In this document: in pieces, positions 1 through 8,967 of the stretch
Numbering within the stretch: the stretch's first letter is position 1
Layout: every line of letters begins with the position of its first letter
NCBI RefSeq assembly: GCF_002737765.1
Contig: NZ_PEGG01000043.1
Location: forward strand, 1-10,113
DNA: 10,113 nucleotides
Direction of reading: 5' to 3'
Source: Caulobacter sp. B11
GTDB lineage: Bacteria; Pseudomonadota; Alphaproteobacteria; Caulobacterales; Caulobacteraceae
Translations under genes and position numbers: made by a program
The notes under the pieces: model-generated
Databases searched by the model: none
What the model was told of the DNA's origin: nothing
Seen by the model: the letters and a program-made list of their open reading frames with translations, nothing else

Positions 1-377
1 CAGCAGCAGCACCTCGTCCGGTGCAAAGGCGGCCACCGCCTTGGCGGTCTCCGAGGTCAGCGGATGCCAGTAGCGCATGGCGATAAAGCAGCGGGTCTCC
101 AGCTCGGGAAGCCGGACGTCCAGATCGGCCTGCAGGGCCTTGGCCTGTTTCTCGGTCTCGGGCAGCAGGGGAGAACCGCCGCCCATGATCGCGTAATTGG
201 CCCGGGCTGACTTGGCGCGAGTGGTCGAGATCAGGGCCGCCAGGGCGTAGCGGATCGGCGCCGGGGCGCCGATGATCGCCTTGTCCCGGAACAGATTGAA
301 CAGAAACGGCCGAACGGCCTTGGCCCGTCGGGTCCGCCCAGATTGAACAGGACGACAGCGACCTTGCGACGGCTCAC
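1..377 (-). CDS. hemH: Ferrochelatase, N-terminal part, with an apparent 1-base frameshift; runs off the window
   Basis: Ferrochelatase inserts Fe2+ into protoporphyrin IX, the last step of haem synthesis. A GTG at 377-375 starts the reading V-S-R-R-K-V-A-V-V-L-F-N-L-G-G-P-D-G-P, the typical ferrochelatase N-terminus. At about 321-322 the frame breaks. Supplying one base after GGGCC restores P-K-A-V-R-P-F-L-F-N-L-F-R-D, then I-I-G-A-P, an M-G-G-G-S-P-L-L-P motif and F-I-A-M-R-Y-W-H-P, all typical of the family, open to base 1. About 125 residues are visible; the catalytic C-terminal half lies outside. The start overlaps the hemE stop by 4 bp (GTGA), so the two genes are probably co-transcribed and translationally coupled. 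The missing base sits next to a C/G run and the gene is normally essential, so a sequencing error is likelier than a pseudogene. Identity is confident; the intactness of the real gene is inferred. Confidence 0.9.
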
Positions 378-1402
378 TTGCCGGTCACCCGCGCCAGCAC
401 CGCCTCGACATGGGCGATCGGCGTGTCGGGCAGGATCCCGTGGCCGAGGTTGAAGATATAGGGCCCGCCGCCCCACTGTTCGAGCAGCTGGTCGACCCGG
501 CGCAACAGGCCGTCGCCGCCGGCCCGCAGCAGAAGCGGATCCAGGGCCCCCTGGATGGTCTTGGTCTTCTGGATGGTCTGGCCCAGGGCCGCCGAGGCCT
601 GGGTGTCCAGCGCCACGCCCTGCACCGGCACGGCGCGCGCATAGGCTTCGACCAGGGTCCCGGCTCCCCGCGGAAAGCCGATCAGCGGGACCGTGACGCC
701 GCGCGCCCGCAGGCCTTGAGCGATGGCGATATGGGGTTCGATGACCAGCCGTTGGAACAGGGGCTCTGAAAGCCCTTCGGCCCAGCTCTCGAACAGTTTC
801 AGGGCCTGGGCGCCGGATCGGGCCTGCATGGCCAGATAGTCGACGGTGGCCTCGACCAGAACAGCGATCAGCTGATCCAGAACCTCGGGGTGCTCATAGG
901 CGAAGGTCCGCGCGCCCGAACGGTCGCTGGAGCCGCCTTCGATCATATAGGTCGCCACGGTCCAGGGCGCGCCGGCGAAGCCGATCAGGGCCCGGTCAGG
1001 CTCCAGGGCGGCCCGGACCCGGCTGAGGGTCTCGCCCACGGCGCCGAGGGCCTCGCCGGCTTGCTGCGTCAGCGCCGCCATCGACTCGATCGACGGCAGG
1101 GCGCCCAGCTTGGGCCCCTCGCCGGCCTCGAACCAAACCTTTTGGCCGAGGGCTTGCGGGATCAGCAGGATGTCGGCGAAGACGATGGCCGCGTCGTAGG
1201 GAAAGCGCCGCATCGGCTGCAGAGTGACCTCGGCGGCCTTTTCGGGGTTGAGGCAGAAATCGATGAAGCTCGGCTCGGTGGCCCGCACCGCCCGATACTC
1301 CGGGAGATAGCGGCCCGCCTGGCGCATGAACCAAATCGGCGGGCGTTCGGCGGTTTCGCCGGCCAGGACGGAAAGCAGCTTGGGGATCGGGAGCGTCGTC
1401 AT
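374..1402 (-). CDS. hemE: Uroporphyrinogen decarboxylase
   Basis: A cytoplasmic enzyme that removes four carboxyl groups from uroporphyrinogen III to give coproporphyrinogen III in haem synthesis. The 342-residue product is the usual family length. Visible motifs are P-P-I-W-F-M-R-Q-A-G-R-Y at residues 21-32 (first family signature), the catalytic-type Asp77 in V-F-A-D-I-L, G-F-A-G-A-P-W-T at 141-148 (second signature) leading to Tyr152, and His321 in F-N-L-G-H-G-I. These match the Asp/Tyr/His set known from the human enzyme. The ATG at 1402-1400 has only a weak AAGG ribosome-binding site, but nothing upstream extends the family N-terminus. hemH follows with a 4-bp overlap. The gene points away from the putative origin, as hemE does in Caulobacter crescentus, and a CtrA-type site lies about 70 bp upstream. 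Confidence 0.97.
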   Translation of the reverse strand: MTTLPIPKLLSVLAGETAERPPIWFMRQAGRYLPEYRAVRATEPSFIDFCLNPEKAAEVTLQPMRRFPYDAAIVFADILLIPQALGQKVWFEAGEGPKLGALPSIESMAALTQQAGEALGAVGETLSRVRAALEPDRALIGFAGAPWTVATYMIEGGSSDRSGARTFAYEHPEVLDQLIAVLVEATVDYLAMQARSGAQALKLFESWAEGLSEPLFQRLVIEPHIAIAQGLRARGVTVPLIGFPRGAGTLVEAYARAVPVQGVALDTQASAALGQTIQKTKTIQGALDPLLLRAGGDGLLRRVDQLLEQWGGGPYIFNLGHGILPDTPIAHVEAVLARVTGK

Positions 1403-1470
1403 ACCGGCCTTAAATCCCGTCAGGCCCTTGGGCTCAAGCCCGGATCGATACGGAAGCCTTCTTCCTTATC

Positions 1471-1485
1471 TTAATTAGATTTTAA
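1471..1485. promoter_or_regulatory. CtrA binding site (TTAA-N7-TTAA) on the hemE side
   Basis: The sequence TTAATTAGATTTTAA matches the full CtrA consensus TTAA-N7-TTAA. It lies in the most AT-rich patch of the gap, about 70 bp upstream of the hemE start codon. In C. crescentus a CtrA site overlaps the hemE promoter within the origin, so a dual role in repressing initiation and tuning hemE transcription is plausible. Confidence 0.8.
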
Positions 1486-1613
1486 TGAAGATGGTAGGAG
1501 ATGGAGGGCAGGTGCAGCAAATCGGGGACAACCCTGTCGCGCCGCACGCATCCCACACAGGATTGACCGTCTGTCCCCGGACCGCTCACAGGGTATCAGA
1601 CCCCTGTTAAGTC

Positions 1614-1622
1614 TGGGGATAG
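1614..1622 (-). promoter_or_regulatory. Weak DnaA-like box
   Basis: Read on the minus strand this is CTATCCCCA, 7/9 to TTATCCACA. It lies within the first copy of the repeated decamer GTCTGGGGAT (1611-1620; second copy 1745-1754). Caulobacter origins are known to use weak, off-consensus DnaA boxes, but this assignment is tentative. Confidence 0.4.
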
Positions 1623-1643
1623 CCCGACAGCACGGCGAATTTC

Positions 1644-1658
1644 TTAATAAATCTTAAC
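1644..1658 (+). promoter_or_regulatory. CtrA-like site with a 6-base spacer
   Basis: TTAA-taaatc-TTAAC has both half-sites and the preferred trailing C, but a 6-base rather than 7-base spacer. It sits in the second AT-rich patch (about 1637-1657). The spacer contains an A-run, and this sequence drops single bases from short runs elsewhere, so the true spacer may be seven. Confidence 0.6.
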
Positions 1659-1702
1659 GGCCCCCGGTGCGAAACGCGGGCCGACGCGCCGATCCCACAG
1701 CC

Positions 1703-1725
1703 CGGTGAACGAGTCAGATTCACCG
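1703..1725. repeat. Inverted repeat enclosing two GANTC methylation sites
   Basis: CGGTGAA-N9-TTCACCG is a perfect 7-bp-arm inverted repeat. Across its spacer and right arm lie GAGTC (1711-1715) and GATTC (1717-1721), two GANTC sites one base apart. GANTC is the target of the cell-cycle methyltransferase CcrM in Caulobacter and relatives. Which protein, if any, reads the repeat is unknown. Confidence 0.7.
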
Positions 1726-1747
1726 CCGGCCGTTCACTATCTCAGTC

Positions 1748-1756
1748 TGGGGATTG
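1748..1756 (-). promoter_or_regulatory. Weak DnaA-like box
   Basis: Read on the minus strand this is CAATCCCCA, 6/9 to TTATCCACA. It lies within the second GTCTGGGGAT copy (1745-1754), in the same orientation as the first. It is supported mainly by that repetition. Confidence 0.3.
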
Positions 1757-1851
1757 TCCGGCGTCAACGCGACCGTTTAACACAGGGGTCGAGGGTGGGT
1801 CCTGATGGGCCCGGATTGATGCCCGCTCGTCCCCAGAGGCTGCGCCAGTGG

Positions 1852-1867
1852 TTAAGCAATCATTAAC
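1852..1867 (+). promoter_or_regulatory. CtrA binding site (TTAA-N7-TTAAC) beside the DnaA box
   Basis: TTAA-gcaatca-TTAAC is a complete CtrA consensus including the trailing C. It ends three bases before the best DnaA box in the gap, close enough for bound CtrA and DnaA to interfere with each other. Confidence 0.83.
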
Positions 1868-1870
1868 GGA

Positions 1871-1879
1871 TAATCCACA
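1871..1879 (+). promoter_or_regulatory. DnaA box, 8/9 match
   Basis: TAATCCACA differs at one position from the classical TTATCCACA. It is the best DnaA box in the intergenic region and directly follows the CtrA site at 1852-1867. Confidence 0.72.
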
Positions 1880-1927
1880 GGACAACGGCGGTTCGGACAA
1901 CGACCGCCCTGCCCGCGGTTCGCAACC

Positions 1928-2748
1928 TACTTCCACATCCATCTGGTTTCCGACTCGACCGGCGAACCCTTAACGCCATGGCAAGGGCGGTCTGCGCCCG
2001 ATTCACCGACATTCTGCCGATTGAGCACATCTATGCGCTGGTCCGTTCGACCCGGCAGCTGGACCGGGCCCTGGACGAGATCGCCGGCGCGCCGGGCGTG
2101 GTGATGCACACCATTGTCGACGCCGGACTGCGGGCCGCGCTCGAAGAGGGTTGTCGGCGGCTCGAAATGCCCTGTATCGCCGCGCTCGACCCGGTGGTCA
2201 GCGCCATGTCGCGCTATCTCGGCGCCCGGATCTCGACCCGGGTCGGGGCTCAGCACACCCTGAACAACGACTATTTCGACCGCATCGACGCACTGGACTA
2301 CGCCATCGCCCATGACGACGGCCAGGGCGGCCAGGATCTGTCGGTGGCCGATGTGATCCTGGTGGGGGTGTCGCGCACCTCCAAGACCCCGACCTGCATC
2401 TATCTGGCCCATCGCGGGGTGCGGGCCGCCAATGTGCCGCTGGTTCCGGGCCGGCCGCCGCCCACCCAGCTGTTCGAGCTGAAGAACACCCTGGTCGTCG
2501 GCCTGATGACCTCGCCGGACCGGCTGATCCAGATCCGCCGCAACCGCCTGCTGTCGCTGAAAGAGAACCGCGAGAGCGACTATATCGACAGTGACGCCGT
2601 GCGGGCCGAGATCATCGCCGCCCGCCGCCTGTTCGAGAAGATGGGTTGGCCGATCATCGACGTGACGCGGCGCTCGGTCGAGGAGACCGCCGCGGCGATC
2701 ATCAACCTGCTGTCGGGCGGGCGCGGTCAGGTGGAGGTGCTCGGTTGA
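1928..2748 (+). CDS. Pyruvate, phosphate dikinase / PEP synthase regulatory protein (PPSR, DUF299), with an apparent N-terminal frameshift
   Basis: A bifunctional kinase/pyrophosphorylase that uses ADP and phosphate to switch PEP synthase or pyruvate phosphate dikinase off and on, controlling PEP supply. The diagnostic nucleotide-binding loop G-V-S-R-T-S-K-T-P-T lies at 2365-2394, followed by C-I-Y-L-A-H-R-G and a K-N-T-L-V-V-G-L segment. An ATG at 1978 opens a 256-residue frame, but family members begin earlier. The conserved Y-F-H-I-H-L-V-S-D-S-T-G-E is encoded at 1928-1966 in another frame, and one extra A near 1964-1966 would join it to T-L-N-A-M-A-R. In that upstream frame there is a TAA at 1871 and no ATG, GTG or TTG between it and 1928, so the true start is unresolved. 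This is the RP001 position bordering Cori. The TTG of maf overlaps its stop. Confidence 0.93.
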
Positions 2749-3338: not shown

Positions 3339-4191
3339 GCGGTTCGATTAGCGGTGCGGCCATGGTCGCCGGGGTCTGCGGCGCCCCGATCCGCCATTCG
3401 ATGAGCCCGTTGATCCACAATGCCTGGATCGCCGCCGCCGGGCTCGACGCGGTCTATGCGCCCTTCGCCCCGGCCCCGGAGCGGTTCGTCGCCTTCATCG
3501 AGGGTCTGCGCGGCGGGGCCATACGCGGCCTGAACGTCACCATCCCGTTCAAGGAACAGGCCCTGGCGGTCGCCGACAGCGCCAGCGACCTGGCCAAGAT
3601 GGCCGGCGCGGCCAATCTGCTGGTCTTCGAGGCCGACGGTTCGATCCGGGCCGACAACACCGACGGACCCGGCCTGCTGGCCGCCATCGCCATCCAGGCC
3701 CGGGCTTTGACCTGACTGCCCGGCCGGTGGTGATGCTGGGGGCCGGCGGCGCGGCGCGCGGCGCGGGGGCGGCTCTTCTGCTGGCCGGAGCGCCGCGCAT
3801 CGCCATCGTCAATCGCACCCTGGCCCGGGCCCAGGACCTGGCCGCCGACTTTGGAGCCAAGGTCAGCGCCGCGGCCGAAGGCGACCTTCCCGTCCTGCTG
3901 CGAACAGCCGGACTGGTGATCAACGCCACGTCGCTTGGCCTCGGCGGCGGGACCGGTCCGGCGGCGGACCTCGACCTAACCCCGCAAGAGGCGGTGATCG
4001 TCGACATGGTCTACAAGCCGCTGCGAACCGAGTTCCTTCAGCGCGCCGCCGCCGCTGGCCGTCGTACGGTCGACGGCCTGGAAATGCTGCTGCGCCAGGC
4101 GGTCCCGTCTTTCGAAGCCTTCTATGGCCAGGCCCCGCCCGACACGGTCGATGTGCGCGCCCTGGCCTTGCGTCATCTGGGCGAGGTCTGA
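3335..4191 (+). CDS. aroE: Shikimate dehydrogenase (NADP+), with an apparent 1-base frameshift
   Basis: Reduces 3-dehydroshikimate to shikimate in aromatic amino acid biosynthesis. The first frame (3335 to TGA at 3713-3715) carries H-S-M-S-P-L at residues 21-26 (shikimate-binding serines), N-V-T-I-P-F-K with catalytic-type Lys73, and N-T-D-G with Asp110. The second frame (from about 3703) carries the NADP loop [25 protein letters not shown] and G-L-E-M-L-L-R-Q-A. One extra C in the CCCGGG at about 3699-3704 would read Q-A-P-G-F-D-L-T and fuse them into one protein of about 285 residues, the normal length. The break falls between the two domains, but that is where the missing base happens to be; I do not read it as a natural split gene. 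The ATG overlaps the maf stop, and coaE follows after three bases. Confidence 0.93.
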
Positions 4192-5585: not shown

Positions 5586-6461
5586 TCAGACCGTGGGGTG
5601 ACGCTGACGATCCAGGGCGGCGAGAATGTAGTCGGCCAGGCGTTCGGCGGCCGCCGGCGCCGTGCCCTTGGCCCTGAGCAAGGCGATCTCGGCATCAGCC
5701 AGGCGGGGTAAATCCTCGCCCAGGACGGAAAGGTCGTCCGGGACCATTTCGCGCGGCAGAACCGTCACGCCCAGTCCGCCCCGCAAGGCCGCCAACTGGC
5801 CCGCCAGGGAGGGACTGGTATAGGCGGCGCGCCAGGACCGTCCGTCCATCTCCAGCGCCGCCACGGCGCGCTTGCGATAGACGCAGGGCGACGGGGCCGC
5901 CACGAGGGAAACCGGTCCTTCCTTTATGGCGAAGTCAGGATCCAGAGCTACCCAAACCAGGGGCTCGCGCCAGACCCGCACGCCGAGATCGGGTCCCAGC
6001 GGCTCGCGCTTGACCAGGGCCAGGTCCAGTTCGCCGTTCTGCAGGCGATCCAGAAGATTGAGGGTCAGATCGCAGGTCACGGTCAGAGCGATTTTCGGAT
6101 GACTTCTGGCGAAGGCTCCAAGCACCGTCGGCAAGTGAATGGTCGCGAAATCCTCCGGCGCGCCCAGACGAACCTCGCCCTCGACATCATCGGCCGCAAG
6201 CCCGGCCAGGATGTCGTCATTGACCCGCAGCAACCGCCGGGCCTGCGGCAGGAAGGCTTCGCCCTGCTCGGTCAGAATGACATGGCGCGGATCCCGCGAC
6301 AGCAAGGCCTGCCCCAACTGGTCTTCTAGGCGGCGGATCTGCAGGCTGACCGCGGACTGGGATCGTCCGAGGCGGCCGCCTGCCCGCGTGAAGCTCTTTT
6401 GCTCCGTGACCACCAGAAAGGTGCGGACGAGGTCGAGATCCAGGTTGATCAGACGCGGCAT
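5586..6461 (-). CDS. LysR-family transcriptional regulator
   Basis: A 291-residue LysR-type DNA-binding protein. The winged helix-turn-helix occupies about residues 8-67, including L-V-R-T-F-L-V-V and the recognition segment G-R-S-Q-S-A-V-S-L-Q-I-R-R-L-E; the substrate-binding domain starts near residue 92. The start is ATG 6461 and the distance to the helix-turn-helix is normal; the ribosome-binding site is weak. It is divergent from the SbtA-type permease across 115 bp, the classic LysR arrangement, so it most likely controls that permease and itself. CbbR and CmpR of carbon-fixing bacteria are LysR proteins that control bicarbonate uptake, but nothing in the sequence shows this is an orthologue. 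The effector is unknown. Confidence 0.93.
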   Translation of the reverse strand: MPRLINLDLDLVRTFLVVTEQKSFTRAGGRLGRSQSAVSLQIRRLEDQLGQALLSRDPRHVILTEQGEAFLPQARRLLRVNDDILAGLAADDVEGEVRLGAPEDFATIHLPTVLGAFARSHPKIALTVTCDLTLNLLDRLQNGELDLALVKREPLGPDLGVRVWREPLVWVALDPDFAIKEGPVSLVAAPSPCVYRKRAVAALEMDGRSWRAAYTSPSLAGQLAALRGGLGVTVLPREMVPDDLSVLGEDLPRLADAEIALLRAKGTAPAAAERLADYILAALDRQRHPTV

Positions 6462-6503
6462 GGTCGCACTCTAATATGAAAACGTCATCAGAACGATAGC
6501 TAA

Positions 6504-6523
6504 AATCAACGATGAGAATGATT
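6504..6523. promoter_or_regulatory. Candidate LysR operator between the divergent regulator and permease genes
   Basis: AATCA-N10-TGATT is a 5-bp-arm dyad in the AT-rich part of the divergent intergenic region, 53 bp before the permease ATG. A related direct repeat (ATCAGAACGAT at 6487-6497, ATCAACGATG at 6505-6514) lies about 18 bp apart, fitting two LysR contact sites. A T-N11-A pair exists but is not centred on the dyad, so support is moderate. Confidence 0.4.
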
Positions 6524-6576
6524 GGTCCACCTCTAAAGCCGCCCAGCGCCAAGCACGACGGCGTTTGGAGACTTCC

Positions 6577-7566
6577 ATGGACATCCTCACCCAGATCCTG
6601 ACGCCGGCCGCCAGCAATCTTCTGCAGCCTGCTGTCCTGTTCTTCGCCCTGGGATGTTTCGCCGCCCTGACCCGCTCGAACCTGGCCCTGCCGGCCAACG
6701 CCACCAAGATGCTGTCTCTGGTCCTGATGCTGTGCATCGGCTTCAAGGGGGGCGTCGAAGCGCGGGCGCACGGATTGAACGCCGACTTCCTCAAGGCCGG
6801 CGCCCTGGGCTTGGCCCTGAGTTTCTTTCTCCCGCTGCCGGCCTTCCTGCTGCTTCGCCGGTCCGGTCTGAACCGCGTGACCAGCGCCGCGACCGCCGCC
6901 CACTATGGATCGGTGTCTGTCGTCACCTTCGCGGCCGCCCATAGCTATCTTGTCAGCACTGGCCTGGCGCCGGGCGGCTACATGTCGGCGGTTCTGGCGC
7001 TGATGGAGACACCGGCCCTGTTGACCGCCATCGCCATCGCCGCCTTCAGCGACCGCGATGACGCCACCCGCGCGCCGACCGGAAAGGTGCTGCATGAGGT
7101 CCTGCTGAACGCCGCCAGCGTCATGCTGATCGGCAGTTTCCTGATCGGCCTGGTGACGGGGTCCTCGGGCGGCGCGAAGCTCTCCACCTTTGTCGGTCCC
7201 GTGTTCCAGGGCTTCCTCTGCCTGTTCCTGCTCGATCTGGGGGTCACGGCCGCCCGGCGATTGATGTCGGCGCGCCAGATCGCGCCGGCGGTCCTGGCCA
7301 TGGGCGTGCTCCTGCCGCTCGTCGGGGCGGGCGTTGCACTGGGCGTCGGCCGGCTCGCTGGACTGGGTGTCGGCGACCTCGCCGCGCTGGCGGTGCTGGC
7401 GGGCTCAGCCTCCTATATCGCCGCGCCGGCGGCGATGGGCCTGGCCCTGCCCAAGGCCGACGCCGGAGTCTACCTGACCCTGTCGCTTGGGGTCACCTTC
7501 CCCTTCAACCTGATCCTCGGCATCCCGCTCTACACCCTGCTGGCGACCCTTCTGGCGCGAGGCTAG
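6577..7566 (+). CDS. SbtA-family sodium-dependent bicarbonate permease
   Basis: A very hydrophobic inner-membrane protein of 329 residues, with about ten membrane segments by eye. Family features are I-G-F-K-G-G-V-E at residues 54-61, A-H-Y-G-S-V-S-V-V-T-F at 108-118, Y-I-A-A-P-A-A at 280-286, A-L-P-K-A-D at 290-295, and L-G-V-T-F-P-F-N-L-I-L-G-I-P-L at 304-318 near the C-terminus. These match SbtA, the cyanobacterial Na+/HCO3- symporter, and its heterotroph homologues. I chose ATG 6577 over an in-frame TTG at 6565 because a GGAG at 6567-6570 is placed correctly for it. The regulatory PII-like partner SbtB is not adjacent. Bicarbonate as substrate is a family-based inference. The stop codon overlaps that of the convergent DUF2236 gene. 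Confidence 0.88.
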   Translation: MDILTQILTPAASNLLQPAVLFFALGCFAALTRSNLALPANATKMLSLVLMLCIGFKGGVEARAHGLNADFLKAGALGLALSFFLPLPAFLLLRRSGLNRVTSAATAAHYGSVSVVTFAAAHSYLVSTGLAPGGYMSAVLALMETPALLTAIAIAAFSDRDDATRAPTGKVLHEVLLNAASVMLIGSFLIGLVTGSSGGAKLSTFVGPVFQGFLCLFLLDLGVTAARRLMSARQIAPAVLAMGVLLPLVGAGVALGVGRLAGLGVGDLAALAVLAGSASYIAAPAAMGLALPKADAGVYLTLSLGVTFPFNLILGIPLYTLLATLLARG

Positions 7567-8912
7567 CCCGCCGGGCTCGCCGCCAAGGGATCGCCGGTCT
7601 CCGAGGGCCGGGTCGGTCGGTACTGGGCCGCGTCGGTGGTGAACTCGGCATGGCCATAGCGCACCAGATGGCGGCGCAGCTGGGCCACCAGGTCGCGGTC
7701 GGCCAGGTCGCGCAGGCCGGGGATCTTCAGGGCCAGGCCATAGGCGGCCATGCGGCTGACGACCACCGCCGCCACCAGGCCGAACAGCACGCGGTCGGCC
7801 AGGGTGACGCTCACCCCCATCCGCGTCGCCGCCTGCAGGTCGCCGCCCAGGAACTGGCGCAGGAAGAAGACCTTGGCGAAGCCGCGCTCAACCGTGTCGA
7901 ACAGGCGATTGGGCCATGAGCGGTCGGGCGGCAGATAGGCCGCCAGGGTGGCGCGGACCAGGGCGCCGCAGGTCTCGTCGTCGAAGCCCTTTCGCAGGGT
8001 CTGGTTGCGGGCGGTCATGGTCTGGACCACCCCGACCGGTGTATCGGCCAGCAGGTCCTCGGGCAGGCCCAGCAGATAGCAGCGATAGCGGCTCAGCTCG
8101 ACCCGGGCCCGCTCGGCCGGGGTGAAGGTGGTGCGGCCCTGGCGCAGCAGCTTGTAGCTGAGCAGGAAGATCGGGATCAGGCCGGCCGGCATCTGGTCGA
8201 CCTGCGGAATCGGCACGCCATAGACCGAGGCGTCCCAGGCCCCGGGCCGACGCAGGGCGTTGAAGCGGACCATCGAATGCATCAGCCGCACCATGGCCGC
8301 GGCCTTGAAGCCCGCCCCATGTCGCTCCAGGGCGCCGGGCAGCAGGGTGGTGGTGAAGAAGCTGGCCGTCTCATTGACCCGCCGCGCGGCGCTCTCGTGA
8401 CCCAGGGTCCCGGTCAGGGCCATGGGCAGGGCGGCGTACTTGTTCATGAAGGTGGCGACAAAGGCCCCGCGGATCGCGAAAGGCGACAGGATCGCGGCGG
8501 CCGGACGGTCCAGCCGGGCGCCCTCGCGGACCAGGTCCATGTCGACCCAGTCGGGCACGTGCTCCATGTCGCGGATGAAGGCGACCAGTTCGGGCGGGGC
8601 GTCGGGCACGGCGTCCAGGCCCTCGTCGCAGGCCTTGGTCAGCAGGGCGATCAGGCCGCGAAAGCCGTGCTGCGGCATCAGGCCGGCATAGGCGTCGGCC
8701 ACCCGGTCGCCCAGCAGGGTGTAGGCGCGGATCAGGGCCAGTTGCTCGGCCGTCGGTTCGGCCCCGGCCACGCCCCTGGGCGCGACGCTGTCGGCGGGAT
8801 CGTCGGTGAAGCGCTCGGGCGCGCGGTCGAAATCGATGTCGCCATAGAGCGCCGGCTGACGGGTCTTCTGGTCGGCGACCCGGGCCCGGACCTGTTCGAT
8901 CGTGCCGTTCAT
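7563..8912 (-). CDS. DUF2236 / MpaB-like, latex-clearing-protein-like oxygenase
   Basis: A 449-residue protein of the oxygenase MpaB / rubber-oxygenase (Lcp) superfamily, haem b proteins of which Lcp cleaves polyisoprene; most members have unknown substrates. The family core is V-R-L-M-H-S-M-V-R at residues 208-216, with His212 as the probable haem ligand, preceded by R-R-V-N-E-T at 177-182 and followed by Y-G-V-P-I-P-Q-V-D-Q at 231-240. Measured from His212, Arg178 and Thr182 sit at the same offsets as the Arg, Thr and His I recall for Lcp of Streptomyces K30. A hydrophobic stretch near the C-terminus (V-L-F-G-L-V-A-A-V-V-V) may associate with membrane. I see no signal peptide. ATG 8912 is preferred over TTG 8918 because AGGAG lies 8 bases upstream. 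It is divergent from a TetR regulator, its likely controller. Confidence 0.82.
   Translation of the reverse strand: MNGTIEQVRARVADQKTRQPALYGDIDFDRAPERFTDDPADSVAPRGVAGAEPTAEQLALIRAYTLLGDRVADAYAGLMPQHGFRGLIALLTKACDEGLDAVPDAPPELVAFIRDMEHVPDWVDMDLVREGARLDRPAAAILSPFAIRGAFVATFMNKYAALPMALTGTLGHESAARRVNETASFFTTTLLPGALERHGAGFKAAAMVRLMHSMVRFNALRRPGAWDASVYGVPIPQVDQMPAGLIPIFLLSYKLLRQGRTTFTPAERARVELSRYRCYLLGLPEDLLADTPVGVVQTMTARNQTLRKGFDDETCGALVRATLAAYLPPDRSWPNRLFDTVERGFAKVFFLRQFLGGDLQAATRMGVSVTLADRVLFGLVAAVVVSRMAAYGLALKIPGLRDLADRDLVAQLRRHLVRYGHAEFTTDAAQYRPTRPSETGDPLAASPAG
7565..7577. terminator. Possible shared hairpin between convergent genes
   Basis: AGCCC-gcc-GGGCT forms a 5-bp stem with a 3-base loop right at the two overlapping stop codons. 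There is no T-run on either side, so intrinsic termination is uncertain. It also encodes the last residues of the DUF2236 protein. Confidence 0.22.
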
Positions 8913-8967
8913 GCTCAAAGCTCCTGCGACGAAAACGCGTCCCTCGCCCTGGTCAGCAGGTTATGTA

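Follow-up and report, generated by a model that had tools for sequence, protein, structure and literature searches.

A probable replication origin between hemE and PPSR in a Caulobacter draft genome and the variable CtrA boxes of its relatives

The window analyzed here spans all of contig C43 (10,113 bases) in a Caulobacter draft assembly of 405 contigs and 2.52 Mb, with an estimated completeness of 61.7%. The contig start falls inside hemH, and NCBIfam searches of the remainder gave the order hemE (minus strand) / PPSR (plus strand)-maf-aroE-coaE-dnaQ, confirming the divergent arrangement of C. crescentus Cori named in the original prediction. The products of hemE, PPSR, coaE and dnaQ scored over a model's cut-off. 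The Maf-like protein fell below NCBIfam cut-offs (best 211 bits), and aroE is split into two pieces in different frames, each of which matches shikimate dehydrogenase models. Further along, positions 5586-7566 encode a divergent pair, a LysR-type regulator and a PF05982 Na+-dependent bicarbonate transporter superfamily protein, situated between dnaQ and a gene at 7563-8918 whose 451-aa product matched nothing in NCBIfam or Pfam at E 0.001. In G098, which has the best PPSR match among 199 genomes searched (PPSR 95% identical), dnaQ is followed directly by a relative of the 7563-8918 gene (proteins 88% identical), without the LysR/PF05982 pair in between. Features at and around the hemE-PPSR gap are as follows.

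374..1402, minus strand: hemE, left boundary gene (NCBIfam TIGR01464, 379 bits, cut-off 303)
1453..1505, no strand: AT-rich stretch next to hemE, a candidate for unwinding judged by AT content
1471..1485, plus strand: perfect CtrA box TTAA-N7-TTAA, aligned with perfect boxes in many relatives
1607..1610, plus strand: isolated TTAA half-site where C. vibrioides has CtrA/IHF site c, by alignment with L026
1614..1619, minus strand: W-box TCCCCA, a weak DnaA site (consensus from PMC4285127)
1644..1657, plus strand: variant CtrA box TTAA-N6-TTAA, a motif match where aligned relatives have N7 or substitutions
about 1680..1861, plus strand: putative CcnA-equivalent interval, placed by position
1748..1753, minus strand: W-box TCCCCA, identical in 33/33 sequences of alignment A1
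1830..1835, plus strand: W-box TCCCCA, identical in 33/33 sequences of A1 and present in L039
1848..1850, plus strand: GTG, probable true PPSR start codon (in-frame GTG or TTG there in 33/33 other distinct Caulobacter gaps)
1848..2748, plus strand: PPSR, pyruvate, phosphate dikinase regulator (NF003742, 305 bits, cut-off 225; PF03618)
1852..1866, plus strand: perfect CtrA box TTAA-N7-TTAA (motif match), inside PPSR codons 2-7
1871..1879, plus strand: DnaA box TAATCCACA at the G-box position by alignment, one base off TGATCCACA, PPSR codons 8-11

Two sets of relatives were compared. The first, drawn from genomes of the same genus, holds the 30 best-scoring loci, our own included, out of 197 genomes with a match; the second consists of contig records titled Caulobacter and others, and the two overlap in species. 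In the first set, hemE adjoins PPSR divergently in 28 of 29 relative loci, and the two genes are neighbors in 79 of 80 named loci (the best 80 of 578). Both misses are loci cut by contig starts, one of them L021 of the first set. The gap in the window thus lies where a Caulobacterales origin is expected, between divergently transcribed hemE and COG1806/PPSR. Gaps from 29 first-set loci (own included, L021 left out) and 79 of the 80 named loci gave 108 sequences, 89 of them distinct. In the proposed alignment with other Caulobacterales hemE-PPSR gaps, the end CtrA boxes recur in many relatives and two of the three W-boxes in nearly all aligned sequences.

The same comparison moved the right boundary of the gap. 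Among 34 distinct Caulobacter-type gaps (first set plus L033-L056, window included), an in-frame start codon stands just before the right CtrA box in all 33 relatives, as GTG in 32 and TTG in 1. Thirty-one of the 33 lack any later ATG, GTG or TTG ahead of the conserved FHIHLVSD core; the exceptions are one locus with TTG, and L039 with GTG. Stop codons are absent in 32/32 relatives (L039 lies outside this count), and variation in the first 11 codons falls almost entirely at third positions. Many more distant relatives have an in-frame M close to the FHIHLVSD core instead. PPSR coding therefore most likely begins at 1848, leaving 1403-1847 as the gap proper rather than the 1403..1927 first proposed. 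With that start, the right-edge CtrA and DnaA boxes would be coding sequence, doubling as PPSR codons 2-11. In published coordinates the C. crescentus gap extends to base 159 (PMC1914354, Table 1), so an upstream PPSR start may already be implied by the annotation of that species.

The two perfect CtrA boxes lie 381 bp apart and form the box cluster typical of Caulobacterales origins; none of 200 dinucleotide shuffles of the window contained a perfect TTAA-N7-TTAA. The 2.52-Mb assembly has six perfect boxes, two of them here, and this draft-wide number is barely above that of a reversed-pattern control (6 versus 5). Judged by order, 1471-1485 would take the position of C. crescentus site a, 1644-1657 that of site d, the likely ccnA promoter box, and 1852-1866 that of site e. 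At the position of site c, L026 holds TTAACGCTCTGTTAA whereas the window lacks the other half-site. C. vibrioides site c overlaps a published IHF site, TAACGCTCTGTT, and the gap in the window contained neither TAACG-N4-TGTT nor a match to the IHF consensus.

DnaA sites are of the kinds described for Cori, where two classes are known: G-boxes (TGATCCACA) of moderate strength and very weak W-boxes (TCCCCA) (PMC4285127, PMC4468827). The single 9-mer TAATCCACA is by itself not beyond chance (0.15 boxes expected within one mismatch, P 0.14), and the aligned position is occupied by TGATCCACA in 26 of 29 loci. The three W-boxes, overlooked in the original prediction, exceed the 0.55 expected (P 0.019), so that with the weak class included the locus offers three W-boxes and one variant 9-mer. 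L039, which was left out of alignment A1, has CGGGGA/GGGGGA in place of the 1748-1753 W-box and only one W-box. The W-boxes at 1748-1753 and 1830-1835 are inverted and form part of a longer repeat, CTGGGGAT / GTCCCCAG, with the potential for pairing in RNA or DNA. The paucity of good DnaA boxes had been taken as a possible sign of difference. One 9-mer is indeed all the window holds, but few good boxes are expected at an origin served by moderate G-boxes and very weak W-boxes, and the feature is normal for Cori. Base composition also sets the gap apart: GC content is 59.4% over 1403-1848 versus 68.0% for the whole window, and the window's highest-AT 40-bp stretches (72.5%) start at 1453-1466. 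Of the gap contents originally listed, the CtrA sites, one DnaA box and the AT-rich stretches stand, whereas GANTC sites are at chance level (3 versus 2.05 expected by shuffling) and uninformative.

Comparison with C. crescentus Cori reveals a near equivalent with a somewhat altered set of sites. Shared are the hemE-COG1806/PPSR location, the TTAA-N7-TTAA boxes, the TCCCCA W-boxes, a DnaA box adjoining the right CtrA box and a nearby parS, 8 kb away in C. crescentus (PMC1914354, PMC4468827, PMC4285127). The window has two perfect CtrA boxes, one N6 variant and lone half-sites where five CtrA sites are reported for Cori, one DnaA box with A rather than G as its second base versus two G-boxes, and three W-boxes versus five. 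Cori also has an IHF site overlapping CtrA site c, which has no match in the window, and the 6-base spacer of the middle box, as assembled, is unlike Cori. Closer at hand, Caulobacter loci L006-L010, L014, L017 and L043 share two perfect end boxes and a degenerate middle box with the window. They differ in having the DnaA box TGATCCACA rather than TAATCCACA and a middle box altered by substitution (CTAA-N7-TTAA, seven first-set loci) rather than by a short spacer. Rickettsia hemE-COG1806 origins have the same boundary genes (PMC1914354), a likeness in gene context. An arrangement unlike that of C. crescentus had been suggested as possible, and the layout does differ; the two perfect end boxes are nonetheless common to sister species, and the unusual middle box may reflect a base lost in assembly.

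The short spacer merits scrutiny. It is one base shorter than in the two most similar relatives (AATCTTAA in the window versus AATTCTTAA in L004 and AGCTCTTAA in L013). Any TTAA-N6-TTAA occurs in only 4 of the 89 distinct gaps, and the other three (L071, L072, L077) have it elsewhere, at gap position 9. A shorter spacer could be real and tuned, weakening CtrA binding at the ccnA promoter box: the contig bases read so, and sister species have weakened the same box by substitution. We consider this appreciably less probable than an artefact, since the window stands alone among the 89 distinct gaps with N6 at that place and the draft is also broken in frame in hemH, PPSR (twice), aroE and rho. 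Because no relative has the N6 spacer there and the assembly shows other one-base losses, the 6-base spacer may be a one-base deletion introduced by assembly.

The frame breaks themselves were mapped against G098. Frame changes occur in PPSR (frames 3, 2, 1; from 1848 to about 1970), in aroE near 3700 and in hemH near 315; on another contig, C68, conserved stretches of rho lie in different frames. PPSR is broken twice near its 5' end, the breaks align as single missing bases, and an intact ORF runs from 1978. Although the breaks in PPSR, aroE and hemH are written in the contig, true pseudogenes are an improbable explanation: several housekeeping genes are hit within 10 kb, together with rho on a separate contig, for which sequencing or assembly error is simpler, and hemE, maf, coaE and dnaQ are intact. 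The breaks in hemH, PPSR, aroE and rho thus point to an indel-prone draft assembly.

In C. crescentus, a 182-nt noncoding RNA, CcnA, is transcribed inside Cori between CtrA boxes (PMC8959179, PMC4287350), with CtrA boxes 23 bp upstream of its start and at its end (PMC8959179). By position, the equivalent interval would be about 1680..1861, and its promoter box would here be the doubtful N6 box. The interval gave no Rfam match over gathering scores, no excess fold stability (z-score -0.69) and no convincing covariation (compensatory change in 1 of 17 pairs). The sole long helix in the predicted fold joins the two invariant W-boxes and was set aside as uninformative.

Fragmentation of the draft precludes chromosome-wide skew analysis, and skew and parS distance were therefore taken from relatives. 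GC skew was calculated for G098 from 39 sampled stretches (~0.69 Mb of a 3.86-Mb contig, assumed to be one circular chromosome). The best two-arm split placed the origin at 3.76-3.84 Mb, an interval containing the hemE-PPSR gap at 3.80 Mb. The contrast at the locus (0.0164) was the highest and was reached by none of 5000 permutations, and the opposite switch lay near 1.82-1.92 Mb. The peak is broad, with values of 0.0159 at 0.02-0.08 Mb and 0.0156 at 0.14-0.18 Mb, giving a resolution of about 0.2 Mb. TA skew alone was highest at 3.70 Mb (0.0224 versus 0.0210 at the locus), and the samples closest to the origin had skew of either sign. A skew inversion mapping elsewhere would have spoken against an origin here; at about 0.2-Mb resolution, the switch of this close relative falls in an interval that includes the locus. 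Local skew within the 10-kb window runs against expectation, with positive values across hemE and mainly negative ones in the first kilobase past the gap, and with its sign opposite to that expected it was not relied on as evidence.

Partition sites map to the same region. Eighteen of 20 parS-like sites in six relatives fall 4.9-11.2 kb from PPSR, with all six genomes represented; the remaining two are remote, one each in G196 and G047. The hemE neighbor was checked in the parS genomes other than G047 and G172. Within some 13 kb, G098 encodes successively rho, mnmG, a ParA-like ATPase for which no NCBIfam model reached its cut-off, and ParB. Our draft has a single parS-like site, on C68. This contig carries rho and hemH pieces and matches the G098 stretch left of hemE, a similarity from which we infer that C68 adjoins C43 and that parS would lie nearby in this genome as well.

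Collectively, the sequence elements and their conservation, gene context, the chromosome-scale skew switch of a relative and the parS sites of relatives indicate that window positions 1403 to ~1880, between hemE and PPSR, are the chromosomal origin of a Caulobacter species and an ortholog of C. crescentus Cori, with a probability of about 0.95. The original prediction of a chromosomal origin at this place is accordingly borne out by the CtrA boxes, gene context, the G098 skew and the relatives' parS sites. A Pfam profile search did not find dnaA, which says little in an assembly 62% complete, and a plasmid collection contained no match to 1403-1847. CtrA boxes also regulate many promoters, and with hemE and PPSR divergent and a broad G098 skew peak, within which an origin could be displaced by as much as about 0.2 Mb, the gap could be merely a CtrA-controlled promoter region for both genes with the origin elsewhere. 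This we regard as very improbable, as the orthologous locus falls in the best skew interval, parS is close by and the W-boxes are conserved. Moreover, Cori is published as mapped between the same genes (PMC1914354). The locus is best described as an ordinary but well-supported Cori ortholog with a set of control sites somewhat unlike that of C. crescentus. By analogy with Cori, DnaA would assemble at a single moderate box close to PPSR together with several weak W-boxes, and would open AT-rich DNA beside hemE. In the non-replicating swarmer cell, phosphorylated CtrA at the two end boxes, and perhaps at the middle one, would exclude DnaA.

Across the 89 distinct gaps, 79 have at least one perfect CtrA box. 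The ten without comprise eight from Caulobacter and those of Phenylobacterium loci L073 and L098. In a midpoint-rooted tree of 45 rows, the window belongs to a 26-row Caulobacter branch, supported at 92/88, that adjoins the C. vibrioides branch. Rows of the C. vibrioides branch have four or three perfect boxes; those of the window's branch have four, three, two or none. Fourteen loci with eight distinct gaps (L005, L011, L012, L022, L023, L024, L027, L028, L033, L041, L042, L048, L049 and L051) belong to a clade around C. radicis, C. zeae and C. endophyticus whose origins lack any perfect CtrA box. The 13 of them placed in the tree, again eight distinct gaps, make up one side of a branch supported at 100/100; among their titles are C. 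radicis, C. zeae and C. endophyticus, and one record is labelled C. vibrioides T5M6. Because each of the 12 box-less loci tested retains three one-mismatch boxes, above all 300 shuffles, CtrA control in this clade is probably weakened, not absent. G196, a member of the clade, has nine perfect CtrA boxes elsewhere in its genome. A review states that four of the five CtrA sites are conserved in freshwater Caulobacter (PMC4468827), a statement that the box-less clade qualifies. Our literature search found no paper describing lost origin CtrA boxes for the C. radicis/zeae/endophyticus clade.

The window adds one origin to the classic model of cell-cycle control of replication. Tentatively, and at somewhat less than even odds, strong CtrA control of the origin may have been dialled down within the window's branch, from four perfect boxes to three, two and none (the direction being inferred), while the W-boxes and the right edge stayed nearly fixed. 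That edge, made of a CtrA box, a DnaA box and the first 11 PPSR codons, would tie a metabolic regulator to the origin. The most interesting by-product of this analysis is that origin CtrA boxes vary strongly within one genus, with one clade lacking any perfect box. Such natural variation could be used to gauge how strongly origin licensing relies on high-affinity CtrA sites.
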